Below, piece after piece: positions 13,456 to 62,587 of a stretch of DNA of 64,000 nt. The notes beneath the pieces were generated by a model. The model saw only the letters and a program-made list of their open reading frames with translations. It did no database searches and had not been told where the DNA came from. This stretch comes from Chondrosia reniformis (Eukaryota > Porifera > Demospongiae > Chondrillida > Chondrillidae): positions 4,892,501-4,956,500 of the forward strand of contig OX359193.1 in NCBI GenBank assembly GCA_947172415.1, in the 5' to 3' direction. Position 1 is the stretch's first letter. Every line of letters begins with the position of its first letter. The position numbers and the translations under genes are program-made.

Positions 13456-14114
13456 ATTAACCTACTACTGAAAGAGACATTCCATTACAATGATCACACT
13501 TCACAGACGCATACATACTGACATACCAAAAACTTACGTACTTCGACTTTTCAGTAAATATTAGGCAAACTAGTTATACGTAGTTCAGTAATTATGTACG
13601 TCAAAGAATAGTTTAACTTTCTCTAATACAATACTTAATAGTCATTAGCGTGCATACTGATAACACTACTTATAACCAGTCATTACTGTAAATGATAACG
13701 CTATTGCACAACGCTATGTAAGTTCACTATTAGGACTAAGTTATCACTATTAGATATATTTTACATTATCCTTTAGGTAAACATTTCTAGATACTTAAAT
13801 ACTCCGACACGCCTTACAATAAAATGCTACTTTCCATTTACCAAATAAGGGAGAAAGTTCGTGTTTTAAATTTGACAACGTCTCTATTGGCTTACATTTA
13901 TAAATAAAAGTCTTGTATTTTAACACATATAATTCTAAACTAACAGGTACGACATCTTACCTATATCTTTACTATCATTCCCTTAGGAGAGAGAACCGCC
14001 ATAATATTTATGATGTCACAATCAATATCATGAGTAAGTACGCATGCGCAGTGTCACATTGATGGCGGTGGCCCGATATGACGCCGTAGGTAATCATCTT
14101 GCAGATGCTGTACT
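13456..14114. promoter_or_regulatory. Divergent promoter region between LIS1 and the STAND/TPR gene
   Basis: About 660 bp separates the two divergent start codons. The palindrome cgcatgcgca at 14041-14050 matches the core of the animal NRF-1 site, and gatggcgg follows at about 14061. Sequence around 14030-14090 is locally GC-richer than its AT-rich surroundings. A shared bidirectional promoter is inferred; no transcription start is visible directly. Confidence 0.45.
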
Positions 14115-18205: not shown

Positions 18206-21200
18206 ATGGCGAACTACGAAAGGAAGCTTCTCCTGGTTTGCTTTGTCATTGCAGGACTTCATGTCTGGTCGTCTGAATCATTAGAGAGTAAGCACTTAGG
18301 CAAAATTGCTTGATAAATAACAGTCTTTAAAAGCCATACATTTACATCAATTTCGTTTGGTTGCCGGTCGGAGGGTCGAATTGAAGTTCTGTATAACGAT
18401 ATCTGGGGAACCATTTGTGATGACATGTGGGATAGTTTAGATGCTGCATGTAGCATGTAAGGAAGTGTGTACATATATGTATGTAGATGCTACTGTACGC
18501 TTAGTAGGAGGAGGGAATGCAACTTCAGGCAGGGTGGAAATACTTCATGACGGAGTTTGGGGTACTGTGTGTGATGATAGTTGGAGTACAACTGATGGCC
18601 AAGTTGTGTGTCATCAGCTAGGCTATCCGGGTATCATATCCGCTCCTTGCTGTGCACATAACGGTCGAGGAAGTGGACAAATTTGGTTAGACAATGTCGG
18701 GTGCGATGGAAATGAGGAAGACCTCGCAGATTGTAATCACCAAGGTTGGGGAGTTCACAATTGTGGACACGGTGAGGATGCAAGTGTGAACTGTTTAGGT
18801 GAGTATTTCATAACAAATGAACACACAATGAAAGAAATAGTGTCATGGCCAAGAGTACTATCATGTAGGTCGTGTGAGATTGGTTGGTGGACGTAATGCT
18901 TCAGAAGGAAGGGTGGAGTTCTACAATGGTAGCCACTGGGGTACAGTCTGTGATAGAGAATGGGACATCAACGATGCCAAAGTTGTTTGCAAGGAGCTTG
19001 GATATCCCGATGCTAGAGTAGCAGTAGGTTCTGCTCTGTTTGGAGAAGGCAATGCACATATAGGTCTTAATGACGTTCGGTGCACTGGTAATGAAAGCAA
19101 GTTCTCAGAATGTCCTAGCAATAAACAAATTGCAAGTAGCTGCAGTCACTCAAATGATGCTGGTGTGATCTGCTTAGGTTAGTTAAATTTGTAGAAGTTG
19201 ATCAAAGGTCTTTTGGGTAAGTAAATAAAAGTAATACCTTTTTGATAAATAGTAACTTGCAGCCAGATCACATGTCAAAATGGCGGCACATGCACTGGAG
19301 GTGTATGCATCTGTGGCAGTGAGTACAAGGGAAAACTGTGTGAAAATATGGAAGGTATGTCTGAGAAATCAAAATTTGCTTTCCAATTGATATAAAATTG
19401 TGTTACCATATAAAATGTAATTACATGTGCTTATGTACTAGTTTGCTTGAGCCCTTACTCATGCATCTCTCAGTTGCTGTTATATTGGCATTAAGATAAT
19501 TTTGTGATAACTGATTACCTCTTTATTGTGCAGGTGACGTTCGCTTAATAGGTGGTAATGCCACTTCTGAAGGTCGTGTTGAAATATTCCATGAGGATGT
19601 CTGGGGTACTGTCTGTGACGACTTATGGGACATCAATGATGCAAGAGTGGTATGTCGTCAGCTTGGATATTCAGATGTTGAAGAGGCCATCCTGGAAGCT
19701 GAATTTGGTGCAGGATCAGGGCGAATCTGGCTAGATGATGTAGAATGTATAGGGAATGAAACATTTCTTGCCAATTGCTCCTTCCCTGAATGGGGTACAG
19801 CTGATTGTTTTCATTCCCATGATTCCGGTGTTAAGTGCAATGGTAAGAATTTCTTTATATAGTGAAATACTGTGGTTGAGTGAAAAGATTCTCTCCACAT
19901 GTGTAATACTATTATGTTAGTCACACGTAGTCCAGACTGCTATTTCGCCTCCATACTTTCTTGATGGTGTCACACGGAGGCGAAATAGCAGTCTGGGCTA
20001 CGCGAGACTAGTATTTTGTATTGTTTAATAGTAGTAGTAATAAGTTATACATATGAGCCATTGTTTAATAGGGTGTTTTCTATTAATATATTAGAGGATA
20101 ACTCTTGTGATAAGGTGGTGTGTCAAAATGGTGGAACATGTTTCGGTGGTGTCTGCACATGCTCTAATATTTATGAAGGAGATTACTGTGAAAGTTTTGC
20201 ATGTGAGTTACGAAATGAATATCAATTGACTCCCTTTATTGAAAACTACTGTACATTCCCTTTCCAGGTCCATACACTTGTCAAAATAATGGAACCTGCA
20301 ACAATGGTGTATGCATGTGCCTTGCCCAATATAGTGGAATTCTCTGTGAAACTAGCCTTTCTTCCACACCTTCACCAAGTGCTACCACACTTGCTACAGC
20401 TACTGCATCGGTATCCTCTACCAGCCAGTGCGCTATGCCTGCCCCAACACCTACAAATGGAGGTAAATCATTAAACTGTACATCTGCAGTATATACTTGT
20501 GTTTTGAAATGTATTACTCAAGTTCTGGCAAACTTTACCTCAAAGTACATTATTATTTGTATATGGATACTTCAGTTATAACTTCATTGGTTTCTATTTT
20601 CTAGAGACAACAAGATTTGTTAATGGCCAAAATGCCTCTGAAGGACGAGTAGAGGTATTGTATAACGGTGAATGGGGTACAGTTTGCGATGATCAGTGGG
20701 GATATGAGGAAGCCAATGTAGTTTGTAAGGAGTTAGGATGGCCCTTTGCAGTAAAGGGTACGGGGAGTGCTGTATTTGGAGAGGGAACTGGCAGTATTTG
20801 GTTTGATGATGTATCATGTAGTGGCACAGAAAACAGAATAAGCGACTGTACTCACTCTGGATGGGGCTGTCATAATTGTGGGCATCATGAAGATGTAGGG
20901 GTAATATGTGCAGGTACGTATGTTGTGAATCACATAAGGAATTCCCTATTAAGTAATGCACATGCATACAATTCACAATTGGCTTAGCAATTTTTGAGGC
21001 AAATTAACTAGTCAAAAGATTTTGCTATTCAAAGATATATAAAAATTGATACTCCTTTTCTATACTTCAGATAAGATTCGTCTAGTTGGTGGCAGAAACC
21101 ACTCTGAAGGTCGTGTTGAGGTTTACTATGATGATCAGTGGGGTCGAGTGTGCAGCGATGGCTGGGAGCAAGTGGATGCTGATGTGGTGTGCAAACAGGT

Positions 21201-24200
21201 AGGCTTTTCCAATGGGGCAAGAGAAATTCCCTCTCCTGGAAGATTTGGTAATAGTTCAGGTCAAGTGTGGTTGGATGGTATTGCATGCAATGGAAGCGAG
21301 AAATATCTGAGGGACTGTGTCCACAGTGGTTGGGGTGATCACAACTGTGCTGCAAATGGAGATGCAGCGGTTATCTGTATAGGTGAGTCAATGTAGACTA
21401 CTGTTGATACAAAAGGAGCACAGCTTGATTAATATATGTACTGTGTATGTATACTACTAAATCTTGATGGTTTCTTGTGATCCTTGTGTTTGTCAGTAAC
21501 TTGCAATGACATAACCTGTCAGAATGGAGGAACCTGCCAAAATGGGATTTGTCAGTGTGTCAGTGGTTATGGTGGAGTCTATTGTGAAAACTTTATTAGT
21601 TAGTCCGAATATAGTTCTCTACATTAAATTATCTTCTGTATGTACGGACTAAAATGTGTGTGCATATACTGTATGTATGTAGATGCTACTGTACGCTTAG
21701 TAGGAGGAGGGAATGCAACTTCAGGCAGGGTGGAAATACTTCATGACGGAGTTTGGGGTACCGTGTGTGATGATAGTTGGAGTACAACTGATGGCCAAGT
21801 TGTGTGTCATCAGCTAGGCTATCCGAGTATCATATCCGCTCCCTGCTGTGCACATAACGGTCGAGGAAGTGGACAGATTTGGTTAGACGATGTCAGTTGC
21901 AATGGAGATGAGGAAGACCTCGCAGATTGCCAACACCAAGGTTGGGGGGATCACAATTGTGGACACGGTGAGGATGCAAGTGTGAGCTGTTTAGGTGAGT
22001 ATTTCATAACAAATGAACACACAATGAAAGATATAGTGTCATGGCCAAGCGTACTGTCATACAGACCGTGTGAGATTGGTTGGTGGACGTAATGCTTCAG
22101 AAGGAAGGGTGGAGTTCTACAATGGTAGCCACTGGGGTACAGTCTGTGATAGAGAATGGGACATCAACGATGCCAAAGTTGTATGTAAGGAGCTAGGATA
22201 TCCCGATGCTAGAGTAGCAGTTGGCTCTGCTCTGTTTGGCGAAGGCAGTGTACCTGTACTTCTTAATGACGTTCAGTGTACTGGTAATGAAAGCAAGTTC
22301 TTGGACTGTCCTAGCAATAAGCAAATTGCAAGTAGCTGTAGTCACTCAAACGATGCTGGTGTGATCTGCTTAGGTTAGTTAAATTTGTAGAAATTGATCA
22401 AAGGTCTTTTGGGTAAGTAAATATGTAAAAGCAATACCTTTTTGATAAATAGTATCTTGCAGCCAGATCACATGTCAGAATGGTGGCACATGCACTGGAG
22501 GTGTATGCATCTGTGGCAGTGAATATAAGGGAAAGCTGTGTGAAAATGTGGCAGGTATGTTTGAGAAATCAAAAATAGCTTCCCCGTTGCTTTAATATTG
22601 TTTGACCATGTAAAATGTAATTAGAAGTGCTTATGTACTACTGTATAAAGGGAATTTTTCATAAATTTCATGGTTAGATGGTATTTTCTGCAAACATGGT
22701 GCAATGGCGCTCTGCGTATACATCTGTTGGCAAGCTTAAAAAAATTCCTTTAGTGGTTATAAATGTTTTTAGATGCTGTATGTACGATGTTGGCATAGAT
22801 ACAAGCAACTACAGCATGAGGAGTAGCTCAAGTATATAAGCTACTCTATAGCGGGAAATTGTCGCGGGAGAAAGCTTTCATGGAAGTCCTAAAATTTGCT
22901 CAAACAGAAATATTCACATTTTGCTAAATGAAGATACCTCTATACAATGGCGGTATTTAGACAAAACAATCAAGATGGATTGCTTCAATTTGTACAATCG
23001 TAGACACTATGGTACAATGATACCACAATGTGAAAAAATTGACTAGATAGGTAGGCACATGCTCAGACAGCATATCGCTTCTTCCTTCATGATTTCATTT
23101 CTGAGACTGTCGTGTGTTATACTACAGCTGCCCTTGCACACTGCCCAAAAAGTATGAGAATAACTACAGGATGAGCAGGATCGCTAACTATGAGGTAGAC
23201 TTCAAGGTTTGCGGCTACTATGTCTATCACTACACAGTGGAACCTCGCTTACCGACCACCTCAGTATTAAGACCACCTCAAAATTGCAATTGCAATTTGG
23301 TCCCGAGTAATTCTTGTATCTCGCGCTGTACTTTAGGTGTTCAGAAAAGAGACCACCTCAGAATTTGCTTTTACGACCACTATTTTCGGATCGATATATA
23401 AAAATAACCGGCAAATAACCTCGGTATAATGACCAGGTGTGAAAACAAAGTTCAAGTTCCCTTCGTCGCCAATGCCATATCTCATAGAAACCGTTTGTGC
23501 AAGCTTTACCTTAAAGTAAAAGTGCTTTCTAAATCCCTTTCGCTGGTTCAATGCTCGACGTTAAGGAAGAAAAAGCTTATTTTTAAGATAGAAAACGAAA
23601 GCCAGCCGAGCGTCCGCCATTTTGTTGACAGATATTTCTACGGGTACATGTACGTAAAAATTTCAGAATTAGGACCACCTCAAAATTAAGACCAACAAAT
23701 GTGGTCCCAAATGTGGTCCCAAAGGTGGTCGCATTTGTGAGGTTCCACTGTATTTGGAAAGCTGCTGTCGGGAAAATGTAGCCGTGCCAGCAAGACAATC
23801 CTCACGATCCATTTGCCATCTCAACTTGAGATGGCAGCAGGACAGCAGCTGAAGTGCGCTAGTAGTCTCAGAATCAGATCACAAGCATGAGGCACTGAGC
23901 CCTCTGAGCATGCACAACAGTCTGTTGGGGTGCATCTCTGAGTTGCTGTGATATTGGCATTAAGATAATTTTGTAATTACCTTTTCATTGTATAGTTGAA
24001 GTTCGCTTAATAGGTGGTAATGCCACTTCTGAAGGTCGTGTTGAAATATTCCATGAGGATGTCTGGGGTACTGTCTGTGATGATTTGTGGGACATCAATG
24101 ATGCAAGAGTGGTATGTCGTCAGCTTGGATATTCAGATGCTGAAGAGGCCATCCTGGAAGCTGAATTTGGTGCAGGATCAGGGCGAATCTGGCTAGATGA

Positions 24201-27200
24201 TGTAGAATGTATAGGGAATGAATCCTACCTGTCTAATTGCTCTTTTCCTGGATGGGGCGTAGCCAATTGTACACATTCTAGTGATGCTGGTGTGATATGT
24301 GTCTGTAAGTTCATTCCATATGTATATGTGTATACCACACATCGCAGGTTATATATATATACATACGTACAGACATACACTTATACTGTTTTAAGAATTC
24401 CAGTATTATTAAACAGTTGAAGTATAGGCACTGTAAGTGGATTTGGTAATAGGCTGTATAAAAAAGCAGCAGTCTACCATAGAATATGCTATAATAAACA
24501 CATGGCTTATTAAACTTGTAGGCCATTCTGCAAGTACCTTGCAAGTAGGCTAGGATTATGAATGTTAAGGTTGCCATCATGTAAGTAGCAACTGGGTTGT
24601 GTAATCACATTTTCTAACTTGTGTAGCTTTGTGATAATTATGTCAGCACTTCCGATTATAAGAAAAAGACCTAATTTCAAAAGTACACATAAACTAAAAA
24701 TCAAGAAATTTCTTTCACATCATTTGGCATATACAGTAATTAGACCCTCAATGGAGTGTTTTTTGACAGCCAAATCATAATTCAAGACATTACCTGATGT
24801 GCTATTTTACCAAAAATATATTTCAGCTGCAGCAGTAATATGTATATCCCTTAATTGAACCAGGCTACCCTAGCCATTTTAAAAGACATTGCAAAACAGT
24901 GTCACATTTCACAGAGGCTGGTCAGAACCAGGGTTATGAGGGGAAAGAGAGCCATGGGAAGTCTTGTCAGCTGCCTACTTTATTATTACTTTTAATTGTT
25001 TCATGCTAACGATACCAGTAAGAATTGAATCTGGTATAGCATTAAGTGTATTTACATTTGCAATGGGAGATTATTGTGTGTGTGTGCGTGCGTGTGTGCG
25101 TGCGTGCGTGCGTGTGTGGAGCTACATATAGGCTGTGCATATCACATACATTTCTTAATTTTGTCACCCCTAGCTGATAATGCTTGCAATAAAATTCAAT
25201 GTCAGAATAATGGAACATGCTTTAAAGGAGTGTGCTCATGTGTAGACGGATCTACTGGAACACTTTGTCAGGAGATTGCTTGTGAGTCATACCTGTGTTA
25301 TTCCCCTGGGTCTCTGTTTTAACCTTTTACAATTATGCCACTTTCATTGACAGGTCCTTATCCTTGTCAGAACAATGGTACCTGTAATAGTGGACAGTGC
25401 TCCTGCCTGAGTTCATATGAGGGAACATTTTGTGAAATCAGAAGGGACAGGGTTATCACTACTTCCATATCTTGTATGTATCATATTCCTAATTTTTTAA
25501 TTAATATATTCTGCCTACATGATGTATCCTTTTGAATTTTTTAGCTTCTGAGTCAGAATCTTTTGAAATGATTACTTCATCTTATTCTATCCAATCAACA
25601 TACTCCAGCTATACATCTAGTGCACTTACAACTGAATCTTCTACCTCTGACACTTCTATTCATACAATATCATCAGTAACAATAAGACAATCAAGTGAAA
25701 CATTCACTCAATCCTCTGGTCAGCCATTCTCATCATCAGCTGTGTCTGCTAGTCCAACAGAGGGTGTGAGACAGACTAGTTCATATCAGCTGGTATCATC
25801 ATCAGTAGCAATAAGGCAATCAAGTGAAACATTCACTCAATCCTCTGATCAGCCATCCTCATCATCAGCTGTGTCTGCTAGTCCAACAGAGGTTGTGAGG
25901 CAGACTAGTTCATATCAGCTGGTATCATCATCAGTAGCAATAAGGCAATCAAGTGAAACATTCACTCAATCCTCTGATCAGCCATCCTCATCATCATCTG
26001 TGTCTGCTAGTCCAACAGAGGTTGTGAGGCAGACTAGTTCATATCAGCTGGTATCATCATCAGTTGCAATAAGGCAATCAAGTGAAGCATTCACTCAATT
26101 CTCTGATCAGCCATCCTCATCATCAGCTGTGTCTGCTAGTCCAACAGAGGTTGTGAGGCAGACTAGTTCATATCAGCTGGTATCATCATCAGTAGCAATA
26201 AGGCAATCAAGTGAAACATTCACTCAATCCTCTGATCAGCCATCCTCATCATCAGCTGTGTCTGCTAGTCCAACAGAAGGTGTGAGGCAGACTAGTTCAT
26301 ATCAGCGGGTATCATCATCAGTAGCAATAAGGGAATCAAGTGAAACATTCACTCAAACCTCTGGTCAACCATCCTCATCATCATCTGTGTCTGCTAGTCC
26401 AACAGAGGTTGTGAGGCAGACTAGCTCATATCAGCTGGTATCATCATCAGTAACAATAAGACAATCAAGTGAAGCATTCACTCAATCCTCTGATCAGCCA
26501 TCCTCATCATCAGCTGTGTCTGCTAGTCCAACAGAGGTTGTGAGGCAGACTAGTTCATATCAGCTGGTATCATCATCAGTAGCAATAAGGCAATCAAGTG
26601 AAACATTCACTCAATCCTCTGGTCAGCCATCCTCATCATCATCTGTGTCTGCTAGTCTAACAGAGGTTGTGAGGCAGACTAGTTCATATCAGCTGGTATC
26701 ATCATCAGTAGCAATAAGGCAATCAAGTGAAACATTCACTCAATCCTCTGATCAGCCATCCTCATCATCAGCTGTGTCTGCTAGTCCAACAGAGGTTGTG
26801 AGGCAGACTAGTTCATATCAGCTGGTATCATCATCAGTAGCAATAAGGCAATCAAGTGAAACATTCACTCAATCCTCTGGTCAGCCATCCTCATCATCAT
26901 CTGTGTCTGCTAGTCTAACAGAGGTTGTGAGGCAGACTAGTTCATATCAGCTGGTATCATCATCAGTAGCAATAAGGCAATCAAGTGAAACATTCACTCA
27001 ATCCTCTGATCAGCCATCCTCATCATCAGCTGTGTCTGCTAGTCCGACAGAGGGTGTGAGGCAGACTAGTTCATATCAGCGGGTATCATCATCAGTAGCA
27101 ATAAGGCAATCAAGTGAAACATTCACTCAATCCTCTGGTCAGCCATCCTCATCATCATCTGTGTCTGCTAGTCCAACAGAGGTTGTGAGGCAGACTAGTT

Positions 27201-30200
27201 CATATCAGCTGGTATCATCATCAGTAGCAATAAGGCAATCAAGTGAAACATTCACTCAATCCTCTGGTCAGCCATCCTCATCATCATCTGTGTCTGCTAG
27301 TCTAACAGAGGTTGTGAGGCAGACTAGTTCATATCAGCTGGTATCATCATCAGTAGCAATAAGGCAATCAAGTGAAGCATTCACTCAATCCTCTGGTCAG
27401 CCATCCTCATCATCATCTGTGTCTGCTAGTCCAACAGAGGGTGTGAGGCAGACTAGTTCATATCAGCTGGTATCATCATCAGTAGCAATAAGGCAATCAA
27501 GTGTAAAGGGAACTGTTGTACAAACGGACTCTGTGCGTATTGCAGTATCATCACAAGAGACAAGTCTATCATTGTTGTCCTCTAATCAACCATATTCGCT
27601 GCCTGAATCAACCAATTCAGCCACACCCAGTCCTACAAGCCTTTCAGGTATACATGTATATTTCTACCAATAACATCTTTACATACGTACATTTGTTTAA
27701 TATGTTTATGTTTCCTAGTGAAGTAGTCCTTTATTGTGATTTGAGTACTTCGGTTAATTTTGCAGACTTTGAATGTAAAGATATCAATGATATCTTCTTC
27801 CAAATACATGTATATGAAAATCAGGCATGAACTGTTAGTCATTTCTTCTGGTTAACACTCATAAAACAACCATTAATAGCTTAAATTGTTGTCGTTGCTT
27901 GATTCCATATAATTAAATGATTCCATTGCATTCAAATGGTATTTGACTTTATTTTACTGGTCTATATCTGAACAATTTGTGTGTAAATTTGTAGATAATG
28001 TGTGCCTTTCCTTAACGGAAAATATTGACAACTCAAAAATAAAGACATCATTCACATGGCCGAACACAATATTTCACCAAACAGCAAGTATTCAGTGCCC
28101 TTGTCCTGCCTGGCCTCAATTCACTAAAGGACTCCATGCCTTCAAAGTCTGTGGGGAACATGGTTCCTGGGAAAGAACCATACTAGATAACTGTATTTTC
28201 TCAAATGATGTTGACAATCTCTGCTTAGGGGTTAGTTACCCTATAATGAAAATGTCACGCTACTATCATACTTGTTATCTGCCTTATATGTACAGAACTA
28301 TCCTGATGTCCTCGGTAGCCTTTCAGATATAATCCTGAGTACATCAGAACCAGGAGACTTGGCTGTGATTGTTAATATTTTCAACTATTTTTCTCAGAAG
28401 TCCAATATAATCAACATTCCCGTAGTAAGTCTGGGTTATTATTGACTCTCTGCCTGTGGTTATGATGTAGCTGTTGTTTTCGAGATGATTTCAATAAACT
28501 GTGCTTAACTTGTATTTCCTGTCTAGATGAGGAATTTACTGTTGGAAGCACTTAATGTCCTATTGATGAAGACCACAAGCATTGAAAATATCATGTCTTT
28601 AGACTCCCTTACATTGTGAGTGAAAATACCTAATTGATAACCATCACATACGTGCGTATGTATAGTATATACTATGTCTATATTTGAATAAAGTGTAGGT
28701 ATCACTATGGGATATACTGACTTTGCATGCCCCAAAAGTTGTTAAATACTTACTAAGAGATATCATTAATCTACTTTAAGATTAAGACAAAACTGTCTTT
28801 GTTGGCTAATTGTGACTAATTGTCGCTAAAATATGTACATGAAAGAAAACAATTTTAACTTTTTGACATAGTCAATTTCCCTATTTTGCAATATCTTTGC
28901 AGATATTCCTAATTGCTCAGCCTGTGCATTCACACAATGTGTAGGTATCCCTATGGGTACTGACTATGCCCCAACAGTTTTTATACTGTAGCTTCCTTCT
29001 GTTGGTTTATGAATGTGGGTATACCATTAATCCAATAGCCCCTTTTTAAATCTAGACCAACCCATTAGTGTAGACATGTACATGATAAAAGAAAACTATT
29101 TTAACTTCGACATTGGGAAATCTCTTGTAAGCCACCTTATAAATATATATTGCTTACAACCTTGAACTATTAACATGTCATATTAAATACCATAAAACCT
29201 TGTTAATACAAAGTTCAAGACACTGCCTAGAATTTCATGTTAAAATAGAGGAATAGTGAAAGGCTATATGTATACATGAATAGTTATGTTGTTTAGGTTC
29301 AAGAAGGTAACCTTTAATTTTAAATAGAGAACTAAGAGAAAGATTGCCAAGGTCATTCATGGAGAGTGATATTTCCGGAAATAGCTGTTTGGTCTAGTGG
29401 AGGAGAAGAAAGAGAGGACTTGTATCCGCAACCCTCTAGGCCTCACTAATTACTGTTATAGGCTATTAGTCATATACTTCGTAGGCATTTTAGTTTATTG
29501 GTGTATTTAATTTAGTTTTCATTTATATATGTAACTTACAGGATTACGGATTCATTAGAGACTATTGCAGAAACTTTGGTATTCAGTGGTGGTGTGGTAA
29601 TTTTTGAAAGGAAGAGTTTTGTCTTTGAAGTCAGGGATATTCCTTTAGAGCAGATACCACTCACTGGATACTCCCCGTATCTAGGGATGCAATCTAAAAC
29701 CAGAGCAGCCTTACCCTGGTCTCTCTTTAGCAACTTAGGCAGCACGAGGATTCGGATTAGTAGTACAGTGTTCTTCAAGAATACATTTTTTTCAAGCAAA
29801 GATTCAACTTTATCCATTTACAGTGACATAGTGTCTTTATCCATTATCAATAGAACTGTCTCAAATTTGAAAGAACCAATTTTACTTACTTTTTACAAGA
29901 CAGGCCAAGAAGCTGTAAGAATACAGAACATTTTACCAGTGTGCATAACTCATGTACATTTATACCATCTACATTACATATGTTATTTTACGTATGTAGG
30001 CTGAAGCACTGCAGCCAGCTTCCTGTCGTTTTTGGGAAGGTGAGCACAACAGCCAATTTGCAAATTATTTTCATTGTAGAATTAAGTATAAACGTATTAG
30101 TGATGTAACTCTTAAATTGTACCATCTACATTTTCAAACATATCTATAGGGCTCCAAAATTCAAAGCTAAACCACTACTCACATTAAGTGAATTTAATAC

Positions 30201-31210
30201 TTCCTGGATTTACACATTATACCCTGTATCTTTAGGTGATGTTCAAGAATGGTCAGTTGAAGGCTGTGTGAACAAAGTTGAGAATAATTCTCATGTAACC
30301 TGTGAATGTAATCATTTAACTAGCTTTACCTCAATAAAGGTAAGTGGGTATGTAGTGTATGTATATATCTTTCAGATGCTTCATCTTTCATCATTTGAGC
30401 ATCTAAAGATGATAGATGAAGCATGTCTGAGAGATACTGTAGGTTGGCACAGCTATAAGAAATCCTTTATCATCTTCAATGTATTTGTTTCATATGCTCT
30501 GTTACATGTTTACTGTATTTGATATTCTAGGTTAAGTCCAGTGACTCCAATGTAACTGAAAACGCTGATACCCCAATTAATCCGATCACACTAGTAACTA
30601 TCATTGTGCCAAGTGTTGTAGGAGGAGGAGTTCTAATAGTTCTTATCATTGGTATTTTTTGTCTCCTTTATTTCAAGTACGTAATATATTACAAAATAAT
30701 ATTTTTGGTGTTTTAAGCAGACTGTTTTCAACTTAAAATTAATGCATCTCCTTTTTGATATCTTTGTTTGAAGATGTAAGTATTCCAAAAAGCATGCAGA
30801 GTTTACAGTTAAAGGGGTTTCAGATCTACCAATCCAAAATCCTCTATTCTATGAAGATGCCTTTGACTTTGTCAGTACACTAGACTCAACAGCTGTATCT
30901 ACTTTGCGGCCTGGATCAAATACCAGTAAATACAAAGTGTAAATGCATTTTCATTGAATGTTAATTCACTGTCATTTTCTGTATCTTCTCAGAGTGGCTG
31001 GATGAACCCATTACAGCTATTGATGAAGTAGATAATGCATATGTTGAAGTAGATACTCCATATGTTGAAGTAGATAATGCATATGTTGAAGTAGATAATG
31101 CATATGTTGAAGTAGATAATGCATATGTTGAAGTAGATAAGGCATATGTTGAAGTGGATAATGCATATGTTGAAGTAGATAATGCATATGTTGAAGTAGA
31201 TATAAAGTAA
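18206..31210 (+). CDS. SRCR receptor A: SRCR/EGF ectodomain, mucin-like stalk, HRM-GAIN-GPS, single TM
   Basis: Model join(18206..18287,18487..18798,18869..19177,19253..19354,19534..19842,20095..20202,20268..20462,20605..20913,21071..21382,21497..21598,21683..21994,22065..22373,22453..22554,23996..24304,25174..25281,25354..25473,25545..27647,27995..28230,28296..28424,28527..28615,29542..29914,30000..30039,30236..30339,30531..30676,30774..30925,30993..31210), 6,990 nt, 2,329 aa, all phases consistent. Order: signal peptide; eight SRCR domains (GRVE...WGTVCDD...VVCxxLGY...WLDDVxC) interspersed with seven EGF-like exons (CQNGGTC); Ser/Thr stalk of fourteen 43-aa repeats; HRM-like segment (FTWPNTIF...CPCPAW...CGEHGSW); GAIN-like region; GPS (CECNHLTSF); TM helix; tail of eight YVEVDNA-type units. 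Such proteins act as cell-surface adhesion or pattern receptors; ligand unknown. A possible 9-nt microexon at 27766 was left out. Confidence 0.85.
18336..18480 (+). pseudogene. Relic of the first SRCR exon in receptor A
   Basis: Matches the intact first SRCR exon of receptor B (44032-44328), but the acceptor CAG has become CAA. Ten bases are missing after gccggtcg, tg is inserted in gctgcatgtagcatg, and the 3' two-thirds is gone. After aaggaag the sequence jumps to the lead-in of the next SRCR exon. The ancestral first SRCR, second SRCR and first EGF exons of receptor A were therefore lost. Phase still allows exon 1 to splice directly to 18487. Confidence 0.9.
19927..20001. mobile_element. 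26-bp perfect-type hairpin (MITE-like) in a receptor A intron
   Basis: Arm 19927-19952 (gtagtccagactgctatttc then gcctcc) and arm 19976-20001 (ggaggcgaaatagcagtctg then ggctac) are reverse complements with one mismatch, around a 23-nt loop. The corresponding intron of receptor B at 51126-51234 lacks it, which indicates a recent insertion rather than a structural part of the intron. Confidence 0.8.
22640..23935. other. Insertion in the intron before the last SRCR exon of receptor A
   Basis: Equivalent introns elsewhere in the locus are about 180 nt; this one is 1.44 kb. The extra sequence is shared with receptor B (about 53820-54705), so it predates the block duplication. It contains a decayed frame with [11 protein letters not shown] and an inverted repeat around gccatctcaacttgagatgg. 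Receptor A alone also carries the DNA transposon at 23235. Confidence 0.6.
23235..23750. mobile_element. Non-autonomous pogo/Tc1-mariner-like DNA transposon
   Basis: A 516-bp element with 12-bp perfect terminal inverted repeats cagtggaacctc/gaggttccactg, continuing imperfectly with gaccacct. It is followed by TA at 23751; the left flank reads CA, a probable decay of the TA duplication. The paralogous intron of receptor B shows the empty site ctatatttgg at about 54496. No transposase frame remains. Confidence 0.85.
25075..25117. repeat. TG/CG-rich microsatellite in a receptor A intron
   Basis: Alternating tgtgtgcgtgcg sequence lies just before the EGF exon at 25174. The equivalent position in receptor B (56373-56420) has a longer, purer tg tract. 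Confidence 0.85.
25677..27502 (+). repeat. Fourteen 129-bp tandem repeats encoding the Ser/Thr stalk of receptor A
   Basis: Direct repeats of 43 codons, consensus [20 protein letters not shown] then [20 protein letters not shown] then SSY. They are near-identical at DNA level and lie within one 2.1-kb exon (25545-27647). More than a third of residues are Ser/Thr, typical of an O-glycosylated, extended mucin-like stalk. A/S, D/G and P/L variants alternate between units, suggesting unequal crossover or conversion. Confidence 0.95.
27995..30339 (+). other. HRM-GAIN-GPS module of receptor A
   Basis: Exon 27995-28230 encodes an HRM-like segment: WPNT, then CPCP, then KVCGEHGSW and DNC. Exons 28296-29914 encode a helical then beta-rich region consistent with GAIN subdomains A and B. 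Exons 30000-30039 and 30236-30339 encode the GPS, with CRFWEG, WSVEGC and CECNHLTSF. In adhesion GPCRs and polycystin-1 the chain self-cleaves between Leu and Thr of HL-T, and the halves stay associated. The catalytic His and the Thr are present. Confidence 0.85.
30376..30424 (+). other. Intronic hairpin just after the GPS exon (receptor A)
   Basis: Arms 30376-30392 (atgcttcatctttcatc) and 30408-30424 (gatgatagatgaagcat) pair with one mismatch, 15-nt loop. The receptor B copy pairs perfectly. It begins 36 nt downstream of the donor site. Confidence 0.6.
31028..31204 (+). repeat. Eight 21-bp tandem repeats encoding YVEVDNA units in the receptor A tail
   Basis: Direct repeats of tatgttgaagtagataatgc; units read YVEVD followed by TP, NA, NA, NA, KA, NA, NA and IK, then stop. 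They lie C-terminal to the transmembrane helix and are therefore cytoplasmic in this model. Eight evenly spaced tyrosines in an acidic context could be phosphorylated and bind SH2 domains; that role is inference. Confidence 0.93.
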
Positions 31211-33541: not shown

Positions 33542-33984
33542 CTAGCAATTAACATCAGAACTATCGCCATCCTTCAGCTCCTCTCCCATCAATCTGGTAG
33601 ACACTTCTCGATACAATAATTTCCCATTTTCCAATTCCATACCTCTTGGATTTAGGTAGGATATATATATGATGCACCTTTTGAAGCAGCTGTCACAGCA
33701 ACATCCATTGAAACAACAGCCAAGTAAGTAAAACAATAACATAAATACCAAAATATAGACAACCTGCTGCCAGGGACTGGTACAGGATGTCTTGATGGCT
33801 CTCTGTCTCCCAAAAGTCTTTATTAGGACCAAATAATACAATGCCTATTTCTACCAACCAGGTACCTTGCATGATTATGCTTGTCGACAAGGCTGTGTTG
33901 ATAAGTAGGTGTTTGGGATATTTAGTACGAATGAGGCTGCATACTCTGCCAATTAAAGCAGTGGCGACCAGAATCAAGTGCATC
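33542..33984 (-). pseudogene. TMEM45-like copy A, 3' exons only (5' truncated)
   Basis: Readable as complement(join(33542..33644,33697..33984)) with a 52-nt intron. Residues run from RMHLILVATALIGRVCSLI through NTALSTSIIMQGTWLVEIGI and FWETESHQDILYQSLAAGCL to a C-terminal membrane span (YFGIYVIVLLTWLLF) and the tail MELENGKLLYREVSTRLM. TMEM45 proteins are multi-pass membrane proteins of the DUF716 family. Homology to copy B stops exactly where the (att)n tract begins at 33987, so the first half of the gene is missing here. This copy keeps the final exon that copy B lacks. Confidence 0.8.
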
Positions 33985-33985
33985 C

Positions 33986-33986
<1 letters not shown>

Positions 33987-34074
<88 letters not shown>

Positions 34075-34189: not shown

Positions 34190-37155
34190 ACACTAAACCA
34201 TAAACTCAATGTTGACTGCTGCACTGTTAGGGAGGGATGCAATTACCGATGTAGCATTCCCAACCTGGATGGCAATGGAAATCCTCTGCATTAGGAAGGC
34301 ATGTGACTTTGGTTCTCCAGTCACCATCCTGAGACGCTTGCTAAGCTCCCTCAGGAAAGCCCTGGACTTGGACCTATAGAGCCACATGTCTCCATAGCTA
34401 CTGGCTGGAATCGATAGATGCTGTCGAGGTGAGCATACTTCTTGGCCTTCTCCTCTTCAGCATGAGAGGCAGCCCCTCCTGGCTCAATGGCAGCTCTCCG
34501 GGAGTGTGATTGACAAAAAGTGTCGATACATGTGGCATCCCATACTAAGTACTTTCCCTGTTCCCAGGGGACCATGGTCATTCCATCAGGGCGATTCCCG
34601 TCTGACCGGTGAAGCCCAGAAGGTTCCAGCCGCGACGGGATTTTCGCAGCTGTGAGAGCATGTTGGATGATGTTGTTCACTGCGTTATGGCGCGGAAATC
34701 TTCCTTGGCTGAACCTACAACTTAGACCATGCCTGGCAAATTGATCAACCTCAATGCCACAATGTGCACACTGGTGGGGCTGTCCGAGAGAGGCTCCCAC
34801 TCTCAGTCCCACAGCTATCCGGATGGCCTCATCACTCATCCTCAGCCCCAGGGAGGAAACTGGCGGGGCATTCAACCATGCCCCAGATCCTACTGAGCTG
34901 GCTGCCAACAGCCTGGCTTTAGACACATCATCCTTACATGATGCAAGGATGCTCTCAAACAAAAAGTCTATCCTTGGTTTATCCCAGGCCTTCTGGCTAG
35001 TGGACACAGTTGGAACAGGAGTCTCGGGTGGTAAGTCTTGCTTCCATGCCCTCAAAGCGGAATCCTTTTCCTCATATAAGGGGATGTTGAGAGATGATCT
35101 GGTAGCAGGTCTAGCACCAGTGAGTGGGCTCCATCAGCTGAGGCCAGAAAGGCAGTAGGTGCAAGATGAGAGGCCCTTCGGATGCCAAGACCACCAGACC
35201 ACACAGGGAGTGTGGCCTGAAGCCAACAAGGATCATCTGAATGGAAGTTGATGTTAGTGATCTTGGAAACAATGGATAGTAACAACTGGTCCCAAGAGAC
35301 CAACAAGGGTGCCACTTGAAAGGCTGGTGATGTGCGCAAAACATGTAACAACTTAGGCACAGAGAACGAATGACAGAGGAGAGTAAGAGCATCGTGAGTA
35401 TGGAGATGGTGCAAGCGCTCTCCTATCAATTGAAGGTTGCTAATTTGGGAATCCAACACCGACTCCAATGAACTGGTTCCCAAAGGGGATCCCAGCAACA
35501 TTGCTTGATCAGGGCAAACATACTGCAAGCCAGGGAAAACAGATAGCATACCCTCTATGTCGGATCGGTTATTGGAGATAAGCTCTGATTTTGTTACATT
35601 GAGGCGTAAGCCTAGCTGCTGGCCCTCCTCCTCAATACACCTCAAATCCGCCGAAATGTTCTCAAGTGTGCCACCTATCGTGCCATCATCAAGATAAAAG
35701 ACTTTGTACTCTGACTTCAACCTAGATACAAGATCTTGGATTGACAAACAGAACAGCAACGGACCAATAGGATCCCCTTGCTGGATACCCTCCGATGATG
35801 TGATCTCGACTTCGTCCTATAAGAGGACTGACTCCATGGAGTAGGCTGAGTGGACATATGGTAGCAGTTCAGGAATGAACCTCTTGACCGCACAGATCAT
35901 TTTGTCACGCCTAACACTGTTGAATGCGTTTTAAAATCCACCTTAATGATAGCCTTGTTGGTGGATAGATTGCTCAAATAAATCCTTGTGGCATGGACTG
36001 CTGCTTCCATGCCATCTGGAACTCCAAACCCTAACTGGTGGGGGGCCAAAAGGTCCGGGATTGTGGTGAGAGCATGGAGGCATGCACATTTGGACGTGAG
36101 CCTCCTGATGGCCCCCCCAACAGCTATTGGGCGAATACCACCCCTTTCCTTTGTGAGTGCTGTAAGTTTAGCACCAAACAAGAGAGGATGGATTGGTGCA
36201 GGAGTCCTACCTTCTAGGATCAAAGCAGTCAAGGCAGTTAGTGCATTCAAAACACTCAAGGCACCTTCCTCTGCTGCTGGTCCAATGAGATCTTTCAAAT
36301 GCTGTGGCAACAGACCATCCATTCCACCGCTAGAGCCATTCGGAAACAACATGATAGCTCTCCTAACTGTATCTACATCAATAGCAAAACCCAAAGAAGT
36401 TGGGTGTGGTTGTTCTTCAATGGTGGAATTCTTATGCCGGGGGGATGTTTCAGTCTCATTGTTTCAACGTTGGAAAGGGAGTGTTCTGCTATTGTGTCCC
36501 TGCTGCAGGCCAATCTCACTGCACCTCTGTAATCCCCCTCCTCTAGCTTACTGCTAACTCTAGCAGCCAACGCCTCCGTGACGTCCTGCGATTTTGACGA
36601 CTTTCCTGACTTTCTTCCATAGCTTCTGACATTGTGGGAGGGATCATTAAGGTTGTTGCTCTCCTCAGACACTTGTTTGTTAATCAAGGACGCCAAGTTC
36701 CAGCGTTTACCTCCTCGCTGAGGCAGGCGCAGGCATCTCCTAGGAAATTGGAGAAGCCTATCCCAAGCCGGCACATCATCACGCGACACCACTTGCTCAA
36801 CGATGGCAGCGAATTTTCTAGCGGCAGATGGTTGGGACAGGCGAGGAATTCTTTTAAGAATCCTTGCAGGCTTGACAAAGAGCTTTAACATCTCCCGAAT
36901 TTGGGAACACTGAGATCCCGAATCGTTCGGACTAACACAATCTAGCGTGTGAGAATCTTCCATATTGTCAGTTACGCTGGAATTTGCGGCTATAATTGAT
37001 GAAGACAAACGGTTTAGATTTTTGCATCTAGCTGGATTAGATAGTGAAGGCCAACAATCAACACACGATAAACCATTCTTTACACACTGGCACCTTACAC
37101 AACGCCCAGTCTTCATACACGGGCAACATCGAATTTGGGATCGCACCGCCATCTT
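34190..37155 (-). mobile_element. Non-LTR retrotransposon with C-terminal nuclease-like domain, inactivated
   Basis: On the minus strand, in order: Cys-rich N-terminus (CCPCMKTGRCVRCQCVKNGL), a conserved linker (KLEEGDYRGAVRLACSRDTI), reverse transcriptase (GSSGGMDGLLPQHLKDLI; GIRPIAVGGAIRRL; active-site FYLDDGTIGG), a zinc-knuckle-like CAHCGIEVDQFARHGLSC, then RPDGMTMVPWEQGKYLVWDA. The last has PD followed 13 residues later by D, the restriction-like endonuclease signature of R2/R4/NeSL-type elements; no APE endonuclease is seen. Frame changes near 36380, 35760-35897, 35053 and 34370 break it. It ends near aataataataat at 34170. Confidence 0.75.
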
Positions 37156-37286
37156 TTCACACTTCTATTATTTTTATTTATTATTATTATTATTATTATT
37201 TTTTTTAATATTATTATTATTATTATTATAAAATTTAAATTTACAATGGATAATGGATAAATAATAATACTAATATAAATTTGTTT

Positions 37287-38760: not shown

Positions 38761-40867
38761 CAGTCCGACAACTCATCCTTCACTCTGACACAAGCCTCAC
38801 TCTTCTTGTACAATGGCCCTCAGCAGTCTTCCCTTCACACCATATTCCTCTAACACATTCCACAGCTTTTCTCTACCCACCCTATATCGTAGGCCTTTTC
38901 CAAATCCATACATGCCACCACCATCTTCTTGTTCTTCTCTAACATCTTCTCACTCATTTGTCTTATGGTAAAGAGCTGGTCCACGCAACTTCTGCCCTTT
39001 CTAAAACCAACCTGAGCTTCAAGTCCCTTGCTTTCCGTCACATCTCTTGTCCTTTCATCCAGTATCCTCGCATAGACCTTACTTGGTATGCTGAGGAGGC
39101 TTATGCCCCGGTAGTTCTCACATTTCAACTTGCTTCCTTTCTTATGCACTGGCACAATTACTGCTCGTTGCCAGTCTCCAGGAACTTGCCCATTTTCCCA
39201 TGCCAGACACATTATCCTATGAAGCCACTTCACCACTACCATCCTTCCAGCCTTCAACATCTCAGCACTAATCCCACATATACCTGGCGACTTCCATTTT
39301 TCAGCTTCGATATGGCTACTTCTACTTCCTCAGCTATAATAGGTACCCTCTCCACCTCCTCTTCAAGTTGCTCCTCCCTGTTTAGTTGGTTATCACTCTG
39401 ACCTTGAGTACCCTCTTGCAATAGATCACTAAAATATGCCTTGCATCTTTTACAAATTCCTTCATCATCTACTATCACCTGGCCACTTTCATCACATATT
39501 TTCCCTGCTACATCTGCTCTACTTACACTATGTGTGCGGACCCTACTCCAGAACCTTTTCTGGTTCTTTTGGAAGTCATCTTGTAATGATCTGCTAAGCT
39601 CAACCCATTCCTCATTTCTTGCATGTCTTACCACTCTTTTTACTTCCTTTTTTGCCAGTTGGTACTTCTCCTTTGCCTCTGGTGTCTGTTGCTGCAACCA
39701 TTTCAGATAAGCCACCTTCTTAAAATTTATTGCTTGCTTCACATTTTCATTCCACCATCTAGTTCTTTTCTTAGCATTTCTGCACTGTTGCATCCCGCAC
39801 ACACAGCTGCTGTTTCCATTATATTCTTCTTAAACTCTCCCCAGACTTCCTCTACATTGCTGCTTTCCCAGTGTCTTGCCCTATCTAGATTCCTTTCTAG
39901 CCTCAAACTGAATCTCCATCTCACTCCTTCCTCTTTTAGTTTCCATCTCTTTAGGTACTGTCTTCTGTTTTCTCCTCGTTTTACCTCTCGCCTTTTGTGG
40001 TGCCTTTTTGTCAACTTCACCTTCATGACTACAAGGTGATGGTCGCTTCCAATTTCTGCCCCTCGGATGACTCTCACATCATTTACAGTTCGCTTCATAT
40101 CTCCTCTAACCAAGAAGTAATCTATTATGGACCGCAAACCTCTTCCTGGGCATCTCCATGTGAACTTGTGTATATTCTTGTGTGTTCATTATCCTTCGAT
40201 CATTCTCTACACAGAAACTCAGGAGCCTTCTCCCGCTGTCATTCTCTACTTCTTCCCCATGTTTCCCCATAACGTCACTCCATCTCCCCACATTGTTTCC
40301 AACTCTCACATTAAAGTCGCCCATCACCACCACCCTATCTCCTCTTTGTGTTCTGGCTATCACTTCCTGCAGCCATGCATAGAACTCTTCCTTTGTGTTA
40401 TTATCCTTGTCATCCGTTGGTGCGTACACTTGCACTATCGTTATTCCTTCTCCCTCGATCTTCAGCCTTACCATTATGCACCTTTCATTTACACACCTCC
40501 AACTTCTGACGCAATCTCCCCATCGCTTCGCCACCACTATGCCTACACCACCTCTGGCTCTGCCTTCCTTCACCCCCACGTACACATAGCTAGCACCGTC
40601 AATTACCTTCATGCCATTCCCCCTTCCTTTCGTCTCGCTAAGGCCAAGTATATCTAGATTGTATCTTTTCATCTCCCGAATCAATTCTTCTTCCTTGTTC
40701 CTAGTAGATCTAACGTTCCAGGTACCTAATCTATATACTTTATCTTCATTCTTCGTCAGCGATAGCATCTTAGTTTCTTCGGTGGGTTGTCAAATCAAAG
40801 ACAGGAATCCCGACGCGAAGGCTCAAAACACCGACTTTTTCACACCATCCAACATCATATCCTGTAA
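38761..40867 (-). mobile_element. LINE 5' part: APE endonuclease and N-terminal reverse transcriptase
   Basis: On the minus strand the sequence encodes an AP-endonuclease-like domain (LGTWNVRSTRNKEEEL; LSETKGRGNGM; VVVMGDFNVRVGNN), a linker (RTRWWNENVKQAINFKKVAY) and the start of a reverse transcriptase (GDWQRAVIVPVHKKGSKLKC; ENYRGISLLSI; VGFRKGRSCVDQLFTIRQ; DLEKAYD). It stops at 38761 just after EYGVKGRLLRAI...DELSDW, before the catalytic Asp-Asp box. The domain order and motifs fit an RTE/CR1-like LINE. Frame changes near 40110, 39800 and 39254 make it inactive. Confidence 0.85.
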
Positions 40868-41006
40868 AATTCAGCAGCAATTAATAGGAGGAATATGGGT
40901 ATCCGAACAAGTTAGATACACTACTGAAACATAACTAGATATTTGGATCAACACATTATGAACAGTTGAACAGTTGCATAAAGCAAATCCCAAATGTAAC
41001 ATGTAC

Positions 41007-43032
41007 CTCTTCTAGTTAATCTTGTATCAGCATTATCTGGTCTTAGAGACAACCGAAACTCTGCACAACTACCAGAAAACAATTTTAAGCATGAAATACA
41101 AGGTATGTACGTATGTAGGCTTCTGTTACCTTGTAAACATGCGATATGGTTCAGTTGTACCATTAGTTGTGAGATCGTCAATTAGTACTCCTATGTACCC
41201 ATCTAATCTTCCAATCATAAATGGTGGCCGCCGAAAAATTGCTAAAGATGCATTTATCCCAGCAATTACACCCTGTGACCAAAATTATACGAAAAGGTTA
41301 TATGTATTATATTTTTTGATGTAATTAATATATGTAGTAACATGTTATATATAATAATGAGAAATACACCACCAAAAATAATACAAAAAGTCAAGTAAAT
41401 ATGACATCTTTATTTATGTAAAGATCACTGATAAGAGAATCAATCAATCAAATCAGATAGAACATGTCCCCAAAATTTGGGGGTCGTTCTTACAATAATG
41501 AAAACAAAAACAACAGTAAATATACCCTGCAAACCAATAATATACTGAGCAGTTACGAGCTACTTAAAATTATCTAGCCATCTTTTTGGTGGTCTTTCTC
41601 TGGGTCTCTTCCCTTCTAAGTCTCCTATAAACACTTTCTTCGTTGTTCTGTCATTGTTCATTTCCTGCAGTCTCATCAGCCACTTTTCCTGTCTTCTCTT
41701 CACAAGATCAAGAATGCCTTCTTGACCTAGCCTCTCCCTTATAACCTCATTCCTCACCCTATCTACCTTATTCACTCCTTCAATTCTCCTCAACACCCTC
41801 ATCTGTGTGGCTTGCACCCTTGACTGCAGCTTCTTTGATAGGCTCCAAGCTTCACAACCATACATTAGCATGGGTATCATGGTGGCGTTCACAAACTTCA
41901 GCTTGGTGTTCTTAATTGCTTAGCTCATTCCTTTGCAGCACTACATCGCTCATTCCTTTTCAGCACTACATCACTCATTCCTCCAATCATTCTTGTTGCA
42001 TTTCCAATCCTCGCCTCAACTTCCTTTTCCATATTACCATCAGCACTGATCACCACACCCAAATACTTCATTTCATCCACCTGTTCTAATTCCTGATCCC
42101 CTATTCTCACTTTACATAGCCCTTTCTGTCTTGCGACCCTCATCACCTTTGCTTTTTCCAATTTACTTTCAGCTCCCATCTGCTAAGTGCTTTACTCATC
42201 AACCCTAGATTCTTCTCAAGCCCCTCTACTGATTCTCCCATTAAGACCATATCATCTGCAAACATCAAGTACTTCCACACTCCTGGTGGAGAGCTTCACC
42301 CCACTCACAAAATCTCTCCTTGCCTCCTTCACCACTTTATCCATTACTGATAAGAGAAACATCTAACTATTGTAGAGCTTAGCAAGATATATTCTCATCT
42401 AAAGCACTAAGAAAACTTTACATTTCTATTACTTCAGGTAGTTACTATGCACTTATACAGGAGACTTAGAAAATATGATGTTTTTGATATTTATACTTTA
42501 TATACTTGTGAAGCGGCTTCTTCGTACCCAGTAGTATCATTTATCTGCCCAGCCAAAAAGAGTCCTTTGACTTTGTGACTCTCTAATGATGGCTTCAGCT
42601 GTCTGGGATCCAGATAGTCGTACTCAACACCATAACCTGTGTGCATGTGTTTGGTAGTATTAACAGGATCAATTATAACTGAAAAGGACAAACCTGGTTG
42701 GAGAATGTTCGCATTCTCTAAACCAGCTATGCAGTTCACCATTTGCTGTTGTAAATTAGTAGGTAGAGTACAGGATATTCCATTAGGATAAATTACATCA
42801 CTATTTAGACCTACACAAATAGATAGAATGAAAAGGTTTCACTTATTAAGAAGTTACATAATTACTAGTATACTCACTGAATACACACTTATATAATACA
42901 CATGACCTAGCTACAGTATACCATGCCACATTAGAATTGTTACTTCTATGACAGTAACCTTCTGGTTCAAGCCATATCTGATGGTGTCTTCCTTTGAACC
43001 TGAGCACTTTAGATTCAATAGATGGACAGTAT
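41007..43032 (-). pseudogene. MTO1: Orphan internal exons of MTO1 / GidA-type tRNA modification enzyme
   Basis: Five consecutive exons read in frame: about 42947..43032 ([22 protein letters not shown]), 42694 to about 42811 ([27 protein letters not shown]), 42506..42636 ([34 protein letters not shown]), 41130..41272 ([33 protein letters not shown]) and 41007..41068 (SCAEFRLSLRPDNADTRLTR). MTO1 with its GTP-binding partner makes taurinomethyl-uridine in mitochondrial tRNAs. The FAD-binding N-terminus and C-terminal third are not found nearby. SRCR receptor B starts 850 bp upstream and a LINE lies downstream. Probably a displaced fragment; a functional gene with very long introns is less likely. 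Confidence 0.82.
41440..42345 (-). mobile_element. 5'-truncated LINE insertion with 13-bp target-site duplication
   Basis: On the minus strand it encodes the RT Asp-Asp box region (FADDMVLMGESVEGLEKNLG), KVRIGDQELEQVDEMKYLGV and YGCEAWSLSKKLQSRVQATQ, then KRPRERPPKRWLDNF. The 3' end near 41440 is a TGAT-type simple tail. Identical actgataagagaa copies flank it at 41427-41439 and 42346-42358. It lies in an intron between MTO1-like exons. Frameshifts near 42180-42280 and 41900 inactivate it. Confidence 0.88.

Positions 43033-43885: not shown

Positions 43886-62587
<18,702 letters not shown>

Follow-up and report, generated by a model that had tools for sequence, protein, structure and literature searches.

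A tandem gene family of apparent single-pass SRCR-HRM-GAIN proteins in the sponge Chondrosia reniformis

The window analysed here, a stretch of 64,000 nucleotides, lies on chromosome 5 of Chondrosia reniformis, the kidney sponge. It holds a gene, present in three tandem copies, whose product would be a type I single-pass surface protein, with an ectodomain like that of a sponge SRCR adhesion GPCR and a C-terminus reduced to one hydrophobic helix and a short tail. The copies look like members of a dedicated single-pass GAIN family rather than broken GPCR genes. That the SRCR-HRM-GAIN protein has this architecture and also cleaves itself is, taken jointly, a reading in which we place good confidence.

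The model of copy 1 (positions 18206-31210, forward strand, as for all exons given below) joins 22 exons into 6564 coding bases, or 2187 amino acids, with one stop, and its 21 introns are all GT-AG and in phase. Exon borders were chosen by their fit to frame and splice signals; despite this choice, it is very unlikely that 21 in-phase GT-AG introns over such a coding length with a single stop arose by chance. The predicted order is signal peptide, eight SRCR domains, three EGF-like domains, a mucin-like repeat, HRM, GAIN, GPS, one helix and a short tail. Exon 1 (18206-18287) holds the start codon and a signal-peptide-like segment, [27 protein letters not shown], and ends in phase 1 at the donor GTAAGC. 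By the criteria used it was the sole candidate in the scanned upstream stretch of each of the three copies, among which it is homologous (43886-43967 in copy 2), and in copy 1 it joins in frame. The next three exons (18487-18798, 18869-19177 and 19534-19842; phase 1-1) match Pfam SRCR with E-values of 3.8e-32, 3.1e-29 and 1.6e-32, and five more SRCR exons follow in phase at 20605-20913, 21071-21382, 21683-21994, 22065-22373 and 23996-24304 (2.2e-32, 6.6e-30, 8.3e-33, 1.6e-29 and 1.2e-33), so that all eight score 101 to 116 bits for PF00530 against a cut-off of 26.1. Between the two groups lie two EGF-like exons, 20095-20202 and 20268-20462, which score 18.6 and 29.3 bits for EGF_2, respectively below and above the cut-off of 22.1; for the end of the second, two donors leave the reading frame open, of which 20462 was taken. 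The third EGF-like exon (25174-25281), also in phase, scores 18.5 bits, again below that cut-off. The Ser/Thr-rich mucin-like exon (25545-27647) contains 14.2 copies of a 129-base (43-residue) repeat between 25669 and 27503. A first-pass annotation, made from the letters alone, had described a mucin-like receptor with numerous SRCR domains, and the in-phase model, which has these domains and the mucin stalk in one gene, agrees with it.

The same annotation had proposed that an HRM-GAIN-GPS ectodomain is fused to one membrane anchor, which is upheld with unequal strength for its parts: among the Pfam families that it had proposed as a check, SRCR and GPS were recovered, HRM fell below the cut-off in the spliced protein and the GAIN model gave no match. 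The HRM exon (27995-28230), placed also by its phase, is borderline by Pfam: at 28039-28197 the genome profile search gave 26.5 bits, just over the cut-off of 26.2, and the spliced protein 22.2 bits (E 1.8e-4); in copies 2 and 3 the corresponding exons gave no match at E 0.001 in the genome search. The GPS exon (30236-30339), which reads C-E-C-N-H-L^T-S-F and follows the CRFW exon (30000-30039), is recognised strongly, with 42.4 bits (E 1.5e-8) at 30244-30330, a score that rises to 43.9 bits (E 3.4e-11) once the exons are spliced. For the GAIN exons (28296-28424, 28527-28615 and 29542-29914), joined by their splice phases, the GAIN profile of Pfam (PF16489) had no match anywhere in the genome and was equally silent in every control, which makes it uninformative, and a single-sequence AlphaFold2 model of the main GAIN exon alone (29543-29914) had a mean pLDDT of 32.7 and was set aside as uninformative. 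The GAIN assignment therefore depends on similarity to adhesion GPCRs of solved structure: the window protein aligns with the GAIN domains of ADGRG1 (2.3e-8), ADGRL3 (2.8e-7) and ADGRF1 (5e-4, query 96-325), and with a profile of ten paralogous exons from which the GPS was left out, all eight matches listed at E up to 1 were adhesion-GPCR chains, six of them below 0.01 and the best at 1.9e-5.

Reported cleavage determinants are the H-x-S/T site, the Gly-Cys pair and the phenylalanine of CxFW (PMC13062082), and HLT, Gly-Cys and the Phe of CRFW are present in copies 1-3. An ADGRE2 ectodomain placed on the PDGFR helix is reported to be cleaved efficiently, and its 1TM truncation to reach the surface, while the full 7TM enhances ADGRE2 cleavage (PMC12488864). 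Since the three determinants are present and the ADGRE2-PDGFR chimera cleaves, self-cleavage of the window protein at HL^T is likely by analogy.

The membrane exon (30531-30676) encodes a single hydrophobic helix, [29 protein letters not shown], followed by two cytoplasmic tail exons (30774-30925 and 30993-31210). The first-pass annotation had ended its feature, 27995-30925, at the first of these; its exons stand and its end does not, since 30925 reads better as a splice donor and the stop lies at 31208-31210. Left unspliced, the frame would close about five codons on (KYKV, then a stop), which is less likely because all three copies retain both splice sites of this intron, the donor behind 30925 and the acceptor ahead of 30993. 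The expectation of no further helices was confirmed to the extent that no 7tm_2 (PF00002) match at E 0.001 was found within 6 kb downstream of any of the three copies. Helix number was rejected as a sole test of class, because the helix score of copy 1 (2.71) lies within the 2.40-2.97 spanned by the highest-scoring helices close to eight 7TM loci, the helices of L042 and L043 overlap this range too, and two of the eight 7TM loci (L003 and L004) likewise show just one above-threshold stretch in the 1.5 kb examined. Past the stop of copy 1 a second hydrophobic stretch occurs near 31256 in TTA-rich DNA; copies 2 and 3 have no second above-threshold stretch.

The eight-exon block that starts at HRM and ends with the first tail exon recurs with equal spacing and phase in copy 2 (59524-62458) and copy 3 (locus L027), and all eight exons are open in the three copies. 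Genome-wide, 92 GPS matches were found, 61 with a 7tm_2 match within 6 kb downstream and 31 with none; at C7:7059935, one of the 61, the 7tm_2 match 4.7 kb away may be a neighbour's. Among the 31 loci there may be some 7TM genes whose 7tm_2 the search overlooked. On chromosome 5 all 12 GPS matches are without 7tm_2 in this interval. Two GAIN-exon queries, with E cut-offs of 0.001 and 0.01, returned the same 13 loci in about six clusters, none with 7tm_2, and eight of them have SRCR arrays upstream (three on C5, three on C3 and two on C10). Individual inspection covered 20 of the 31 loci: in every one a leading hydrophobic helix follows the GPS within 950 bases, in 18 it is at least 48% Ile plus Val, and in 18 the H-x-S/T site is kept.

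These features encourage us to ask what a GAIN domain could do on one helix. We propose that it would fold in the ER and cut its own chain between L and T of HL^T, and that the SRCR/mucin fragment would remain docked non-covalently on the anchored stub, as predicted from known GAIN domains. The SRCR arm might bind microbes, matrix or a neighbouring cell, and binding, with or without pull, could release the fragment or loosen the GAIN domain. Because the protein has no 7TM bundle of its own, the result would be that the SRCR/mucin fragment is freed and the stub changes its state, a change possibly read by the tail or a partner receptor. Mechanosensing, shedding and tail signalling are what we infer for the window protein; signalling by the membrane-anchored stub is suggested tentatively, at somewhat less than even confidence.

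Two alternatives concern just this last step. On the one hand, cleavage could merely free, or weakly hold, an SRCR/mucin coat or opsonin, with helix and tail as a passive anchor. The SRCR/mucin-like ectodomain, a tail with no Pfam domain above cut-off and the shed NTFs reported for adhesion GPCRs (PMC13197933) are consistent with such a shedding or docking device. So is the last tail exon of copy 1, in which a 21-base repeat present 8.5 times codes for (Y)VEVDNA: this tyrosine repeat is absent from copies 2 and 3 and was rejected as a conserved signalling motif of the family, and the short last exon of copy 2 reads by eye as ending in [23 protein letters not shown]. Against it, all three copies keep an open frame in their first tail exon, although they are little diverged, and we regard a purely passive anchor as possible but rather doubtful. 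On the other hand, the single-pass protein could join a 7TM adhesion GPCR as a partner subunit, lending it the SRCR arm or a tethered peptide. The 1TM and 7TM isoforms of Drosophila Cirl are reported to pair (PMC13197933), and five 7tm_2-bearing GPS loci (on C2, C3 and C7) have SRCR matches within 25 kb upstream, a putative gene linkage; the 1TM form here appears to be a separate gene and not an isoform, and pairing of this kind seems unlikely.

Decay of adhesion GPCR genes stripped of their 7TM exons would fit recent tandem copies with modest dN/dS (0.51, 0.46 and 0.20, from few changes), the cysteines lost in L042 and L043 and the HxG that replaces the nucleophile in L040 and L045, but is very improbable given that the 2187-codon model is open, that the exons compared are intact in each of the three copies, that the GAIN set of 13 loci is devoid of 7tm_2 and that H-x-S/T is retained in 18 of 20 loci. 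That splicing adds six more helices from further downstream is hardly credible, for although exon-by-exon HMM searching may miss short or diverged exons, the identical search finds 7tm_2 at 61 of the 92 GPS matches (at least one possibly a neighbour's), a DUF716 ORF occupies the opposite strand about 2.5 kb past the stop of copy 1, and tail exons and stop are present in all three copies.

The preferred reading, a dedicated single-pass family, can be set against known systems. With adhesion GPCRs of class B2 (ADGRG1, ADGRL3, ADGRF1) the window protein shares the GAIN-GPS layout, HL^T, the cysteines and CxFW; it has a GPS, a GAIN by homology and a borderline HRM, a domain that is common before GAIN in this class and not required, but no 7tm_2 C-terminal to the GPS, so that a tethered agonist would lack a receiver in cis. 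In the models known to us, the GAIN/GPS module leads into either a 7TM bundle or the 11 helices of polycystin-1, which receive the tethered agonist, and Drosophila Cirl has, to our knowledge, no SRCR. The 1TM isoform of Cirl/Latrophilin likewise carries an adhesion-GPCR ectodomain on one helix, but is described as a variant of a 7TM gene (PMC13197933), whereas the Chondrosia locus has no 7tm_2 within 6 kb downstream. Polycystin-1 also holds GAIN/GPS outside canonical adhesion GPCRs, with 11 helices (PMC9672506) against one in the Chondrosia model. Amphimedon has adhesion GPCRs with multiple SRCR repeats (Aq712029 and Aq715659; Krishnan et al. 2014, PMC4302439), and HRM and GPS occur in the same receptor set; these are classed as Adhesion (7tm_2), whereas the Chondrosia protein has one helix. 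The combination is thus less unprecedented than the first-pass annotation held, since SRCR adhesion GPCRs and 1TM Cirl were already published; our literature search turned up no single-pass SRCR-HRM-GAIN gene family, and the novelty looks like that of an apparent family, beyond one odd gene. With a natural one-helix family one could study the purpose of cleavage where no GPCR is attached, be it shedding, a mechanical fuse, a trafficking licence or partner activation. More broadly, it is conceivable, though we hold it with reserve, that sponges possess single-pass GAIN receptors as a class of their own, dedicated, tandemly expanded and variably fitted with SRCR arrays, in which a single helix and tail, or else shedding, would be coupled to GPS cleavage and fragment release independently of 7TM; if so, the GAIN switch would be a transferable module, used for surface recognition in early animals, and not a GPCR part. 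The sponge SRCR superfamily offers the closing comparison: its genes are tandemly expanded too and proposed for immune recognition, the main text of that report containing GPCR, HRM and hormone receptor nowhere and 7tm once (PMC10855680). In a sponge reported to be high in microbial abundance (PMC12181767), the window protein would tie the GAIN module to the SRCR arrays of these expanded immune-type receptors.

The window lies on chromosome 5 (G000:C5:4892501-4956500) of the searched genome, which amounts to 117,379,552 bases in 15 contigs; for this assembly, odChoReni1.1 of Chondrosia reniformis, 14 chromosomes, a mitochondrial sequence and 17,340 annotated protein-coding genes are reported (PMC12181767). 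The model of copy 1, the first of three tandem copies of the gene, was built from splice sites and reading frames and contains 22 exons (18206-31210), with all 21 introns GT-AG, 2187 open codons and the only stop at the final codon. A signal-peptide-like start is followed by eight exons for SRCR and three of EGF-like type, then by a 129-base repeat (14.2 copies) in a Ser/Thr-rich exon. The 3′ part comprises an HRM exon, three GAIN exons, a small exon coding CRFW and the GPS exon, and ends with a single membrane exon and two exons for the tail. Exon 1 is the only qualifying candidate in the scanned upstream stretch of each copy, and its versions are homologous across all three. One free choice was made at the 3′ end of the second EGF exon: of the six donors considered, only 20378 and 20462 leave an open frame, and 20462 was used. 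The complete model from SRCR to tail is that of copy 1; for copies 2 and 3 the comparison starts at HRM and covers eight exons, the last being the first tail exon.

The first-pass annotation had proposed an HRM-GAIN-GPS ectodomain, the parts of which are supported unequally. All eight SRCR exons are confirmed by Pfam. EGF_2 exceeds its cut-off in one EGF-like exon and stays below it in the other two, and GPS is far over its cut-off both in the spliced protein and in the genome search. HRM of copy 1 is marginal, being slightly over the cut-off in the genome search but under it in the spliced protein; the HRM of copies 2 and 3 is not listed in the genome search at E 0.001, and the solved ectodomains of the glucagon and PTH receptors give weak support (E 0.02 to 1.6). 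GAIN has no Pfam match, but phmmer aligns it to several solved structures, among them ADGRG1, ADGRL3, ADGRG3 and ADGRF1. A profile from ten paralogous large GAIN exons, with GPS not included, lists adhesion GPCRs only, eight chains in total up to E 1 (best 1.9e-5); AlphaFold2 without an alignment gave an unusable model of the main GAIN exon. The described determinants of cleavage are H-X-S/T, a Gly-Cys pair and a phenylalanine stacking on the histidine (F803 and histidine 836 in L1; PMC13062082). CRFW, GC and HLT are all present in the sponge protein, and in the ADGRL3 alignment the F of CxFW is located 33 residues before the histidine.

The single membrane helix is coded directly behind GPS, in an exon giving a stretch of 30 residues that is followed by a lysine-rich turn and tail. 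No 7tm_2 match was found within 6 kb downstream of copies 1-3 in the genome search (E 0.001, 150 of 153 candidates scored), and such a match is present behind 61 of the 92 GPS matches. With a score of 2.71, the window's helix overlaps the highest-scoring helices close to eight 7TM loci (2.40-2.97). So do the helices of loci L042 and L043, and 15 of the 20 loci read without 7TM reach at least 3.1. Over 1.5 kb, three stretches exceed the hydrophobicity threshold in six of the eight 7TM loci and one stretch does so in the other two; therefore hydrophobicity alone is not decisive for the window. The earlier claim of a single helix followed by a tail and a stop, with no more helices, stands on the tail exons together with the lack of 7tm_2 and the single-pass family.

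Throughout the genome, 31 of 92 GPS matches have no 7tm_2 within 6 kb downstream, including all 12 on C5. Some of these may be 7TM genes that the search missed, as several belong to clusters in which the other loci do bear 7tm_2. A genome search with the copy 1 GAIN exon gives 13 places. The distant L038 counterpart of this exon gives the identical 13, all of which are GPS loci without 7tm_2; as they are grouped in about six clusters, they do not represent 13 independent events. SRCR arrays lie upstream of eight of the 13. Within the 150 best of 893 SRCR candidates, these arrays have at least 25, 8 and 10 matches (C3), 7 and 4 (C10), and 5, 8 and 8 (C5). In the array of 25 (G000:C3:6337224-6350581), which precedes a GPS locus lacking 7tm_2, many matches score the same, which suggests recent homogenisation. 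SRCR is not limited to the single-pass set, since SRCR matches also occur no more than 25 kb upstream of five GPS loci with 7tm_2 (three of them on C3 and one each on C2 and C7) and of an additional locus without it (C3:5475469).

Twenty of the 31 loci were read (copies 1 and 2, L027, which is copy 3, L029-L044 and L045). The leading helix lies within 950 bases of GPS in all 20; a single stretch exceeds the threshold in 14, and weaker extras appear in six. Outside the window family there are 17 of these loci, and by eye 10 of them (L029, L030, L032, L034-L039 and L044) have a helix start like IIVPSVVG of the window (IVVPVVLG and similar). H-x-S/T is retained in 18 of 20, with H-x-G in L040 and L045, and cysteines are lost in L042 and L043. 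Within 4 kb downstream of GPS in L036, more ORFs were seen by eye that hold SRCR-like stretches and, after them, a Ser/Thr-rich segment and a single helix of very high hydrophobicity; no GPS was noticed there.

The eight compared exons are 95.5-100% identical among the copies, with the same intron positions and no difference in the GPS exon. The dN/dS values are 0.51 (copies 1-2; 10 synonymous and 18 non-synonymous changes), 0.46 (1-3; 13 and 21) and 0.20 (2-3; 7 and 5), which, with the exon identity, is compatible with a functional gene, although weakly on its own. A 21-base coding repeat in the last exon (31024-31202, 8.5 copies) gives eight YVEV units and is expanded in copy 1 only; by eye, copies 2 and 3 share another ending of 10 residues. 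We take YVEV as a possible SH2 site of the YxxV type, not as a trait of the family. A truncated SRCR piece of 25 residues was seen by eye at about 18371-18445, after the signal-peptide exon of copy 1 and before its first intact SRCR; because an intact counterpart of the piece is present in copy 2 (ORF 44001-44354), the first SRCR of copy 1 may have been lost.

The duplicated block seems to include a neighbour gene, since a minus-strand DUF716 (TMEM45-like) ORF, opposite to the copies, follows both copy 1 (33693-34070) and copy 2 (62820-63485). Between these copies, retroelement-like minus-strand ORFs (34351-37164 and 38850-42182) were recognised mostly by eye, the part tested matching reverse transcriptase PF00078 (35052-35813, E 1e-8), and a minus-strand ORF matching GIDA (PF01134, 42491-42835, E 8.6e-28) is directly upstream of copy 2. 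On the plus strand, the ORFs of 14094-17042 give AAA/NPHP3-like ATPase matches below cut-off and then tetratricopeptide repeats. The ORF at 2974-3720, also on the plus strand, has no Pfam match at 0.001; it codes one helix followed by a tail with an apparent resemblance to a SEFIR (IL-17 receptor) domain.

The architecture of the protein is established at the level of sequence, and its signal peptide, surface display and self-cleavage are predicted. The ADGRE2 ectodomain on a PDGFR helix is cleaved efficiently and the 1TM truncation of ADGRE2 gets to the surface, so 7TM is apparently not needed for cleavage or surface delivery; the full 7TM enhances cleavage, and quantification of the 1TM form was not possible (PMC12488864). 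The SRCR/mucin arm could be released by ligand or pull, and the stub, having no 7TM in cis, would act via its tail, via a partner, or not at all.

No description of a single-pass SRCR-HRM-GAIN gene family was recognised in the literature searched, the coverage of which excludes most subscription papers. Since the Halichondria study considers GPS in combination with 7TM (PMC8242945), it would probably omit single-pass members. An Aplysina gene up-regulated after microbial signals was termed a GPCR from its GPS motif (PMC6208332). In non-holozoans GAIN is encoded in other genes, and Fonticula has HRM-bearing non-GPCR membrane proteins (PMC12716839). The 1TM variant of Cirl pairs with the 7TM form (2026 review, PMC13197933). 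SRCR and HRM also occur in adhesion GPCRs of Amphimedon, SRCR repeats in two and HRM in at least eight (Krishnan et al., PMC4302439). The window protein is no adhesion GPCR by membership, because 7TM was looked for and not found; if self-cleaving, it would work like the extracellular half of one.
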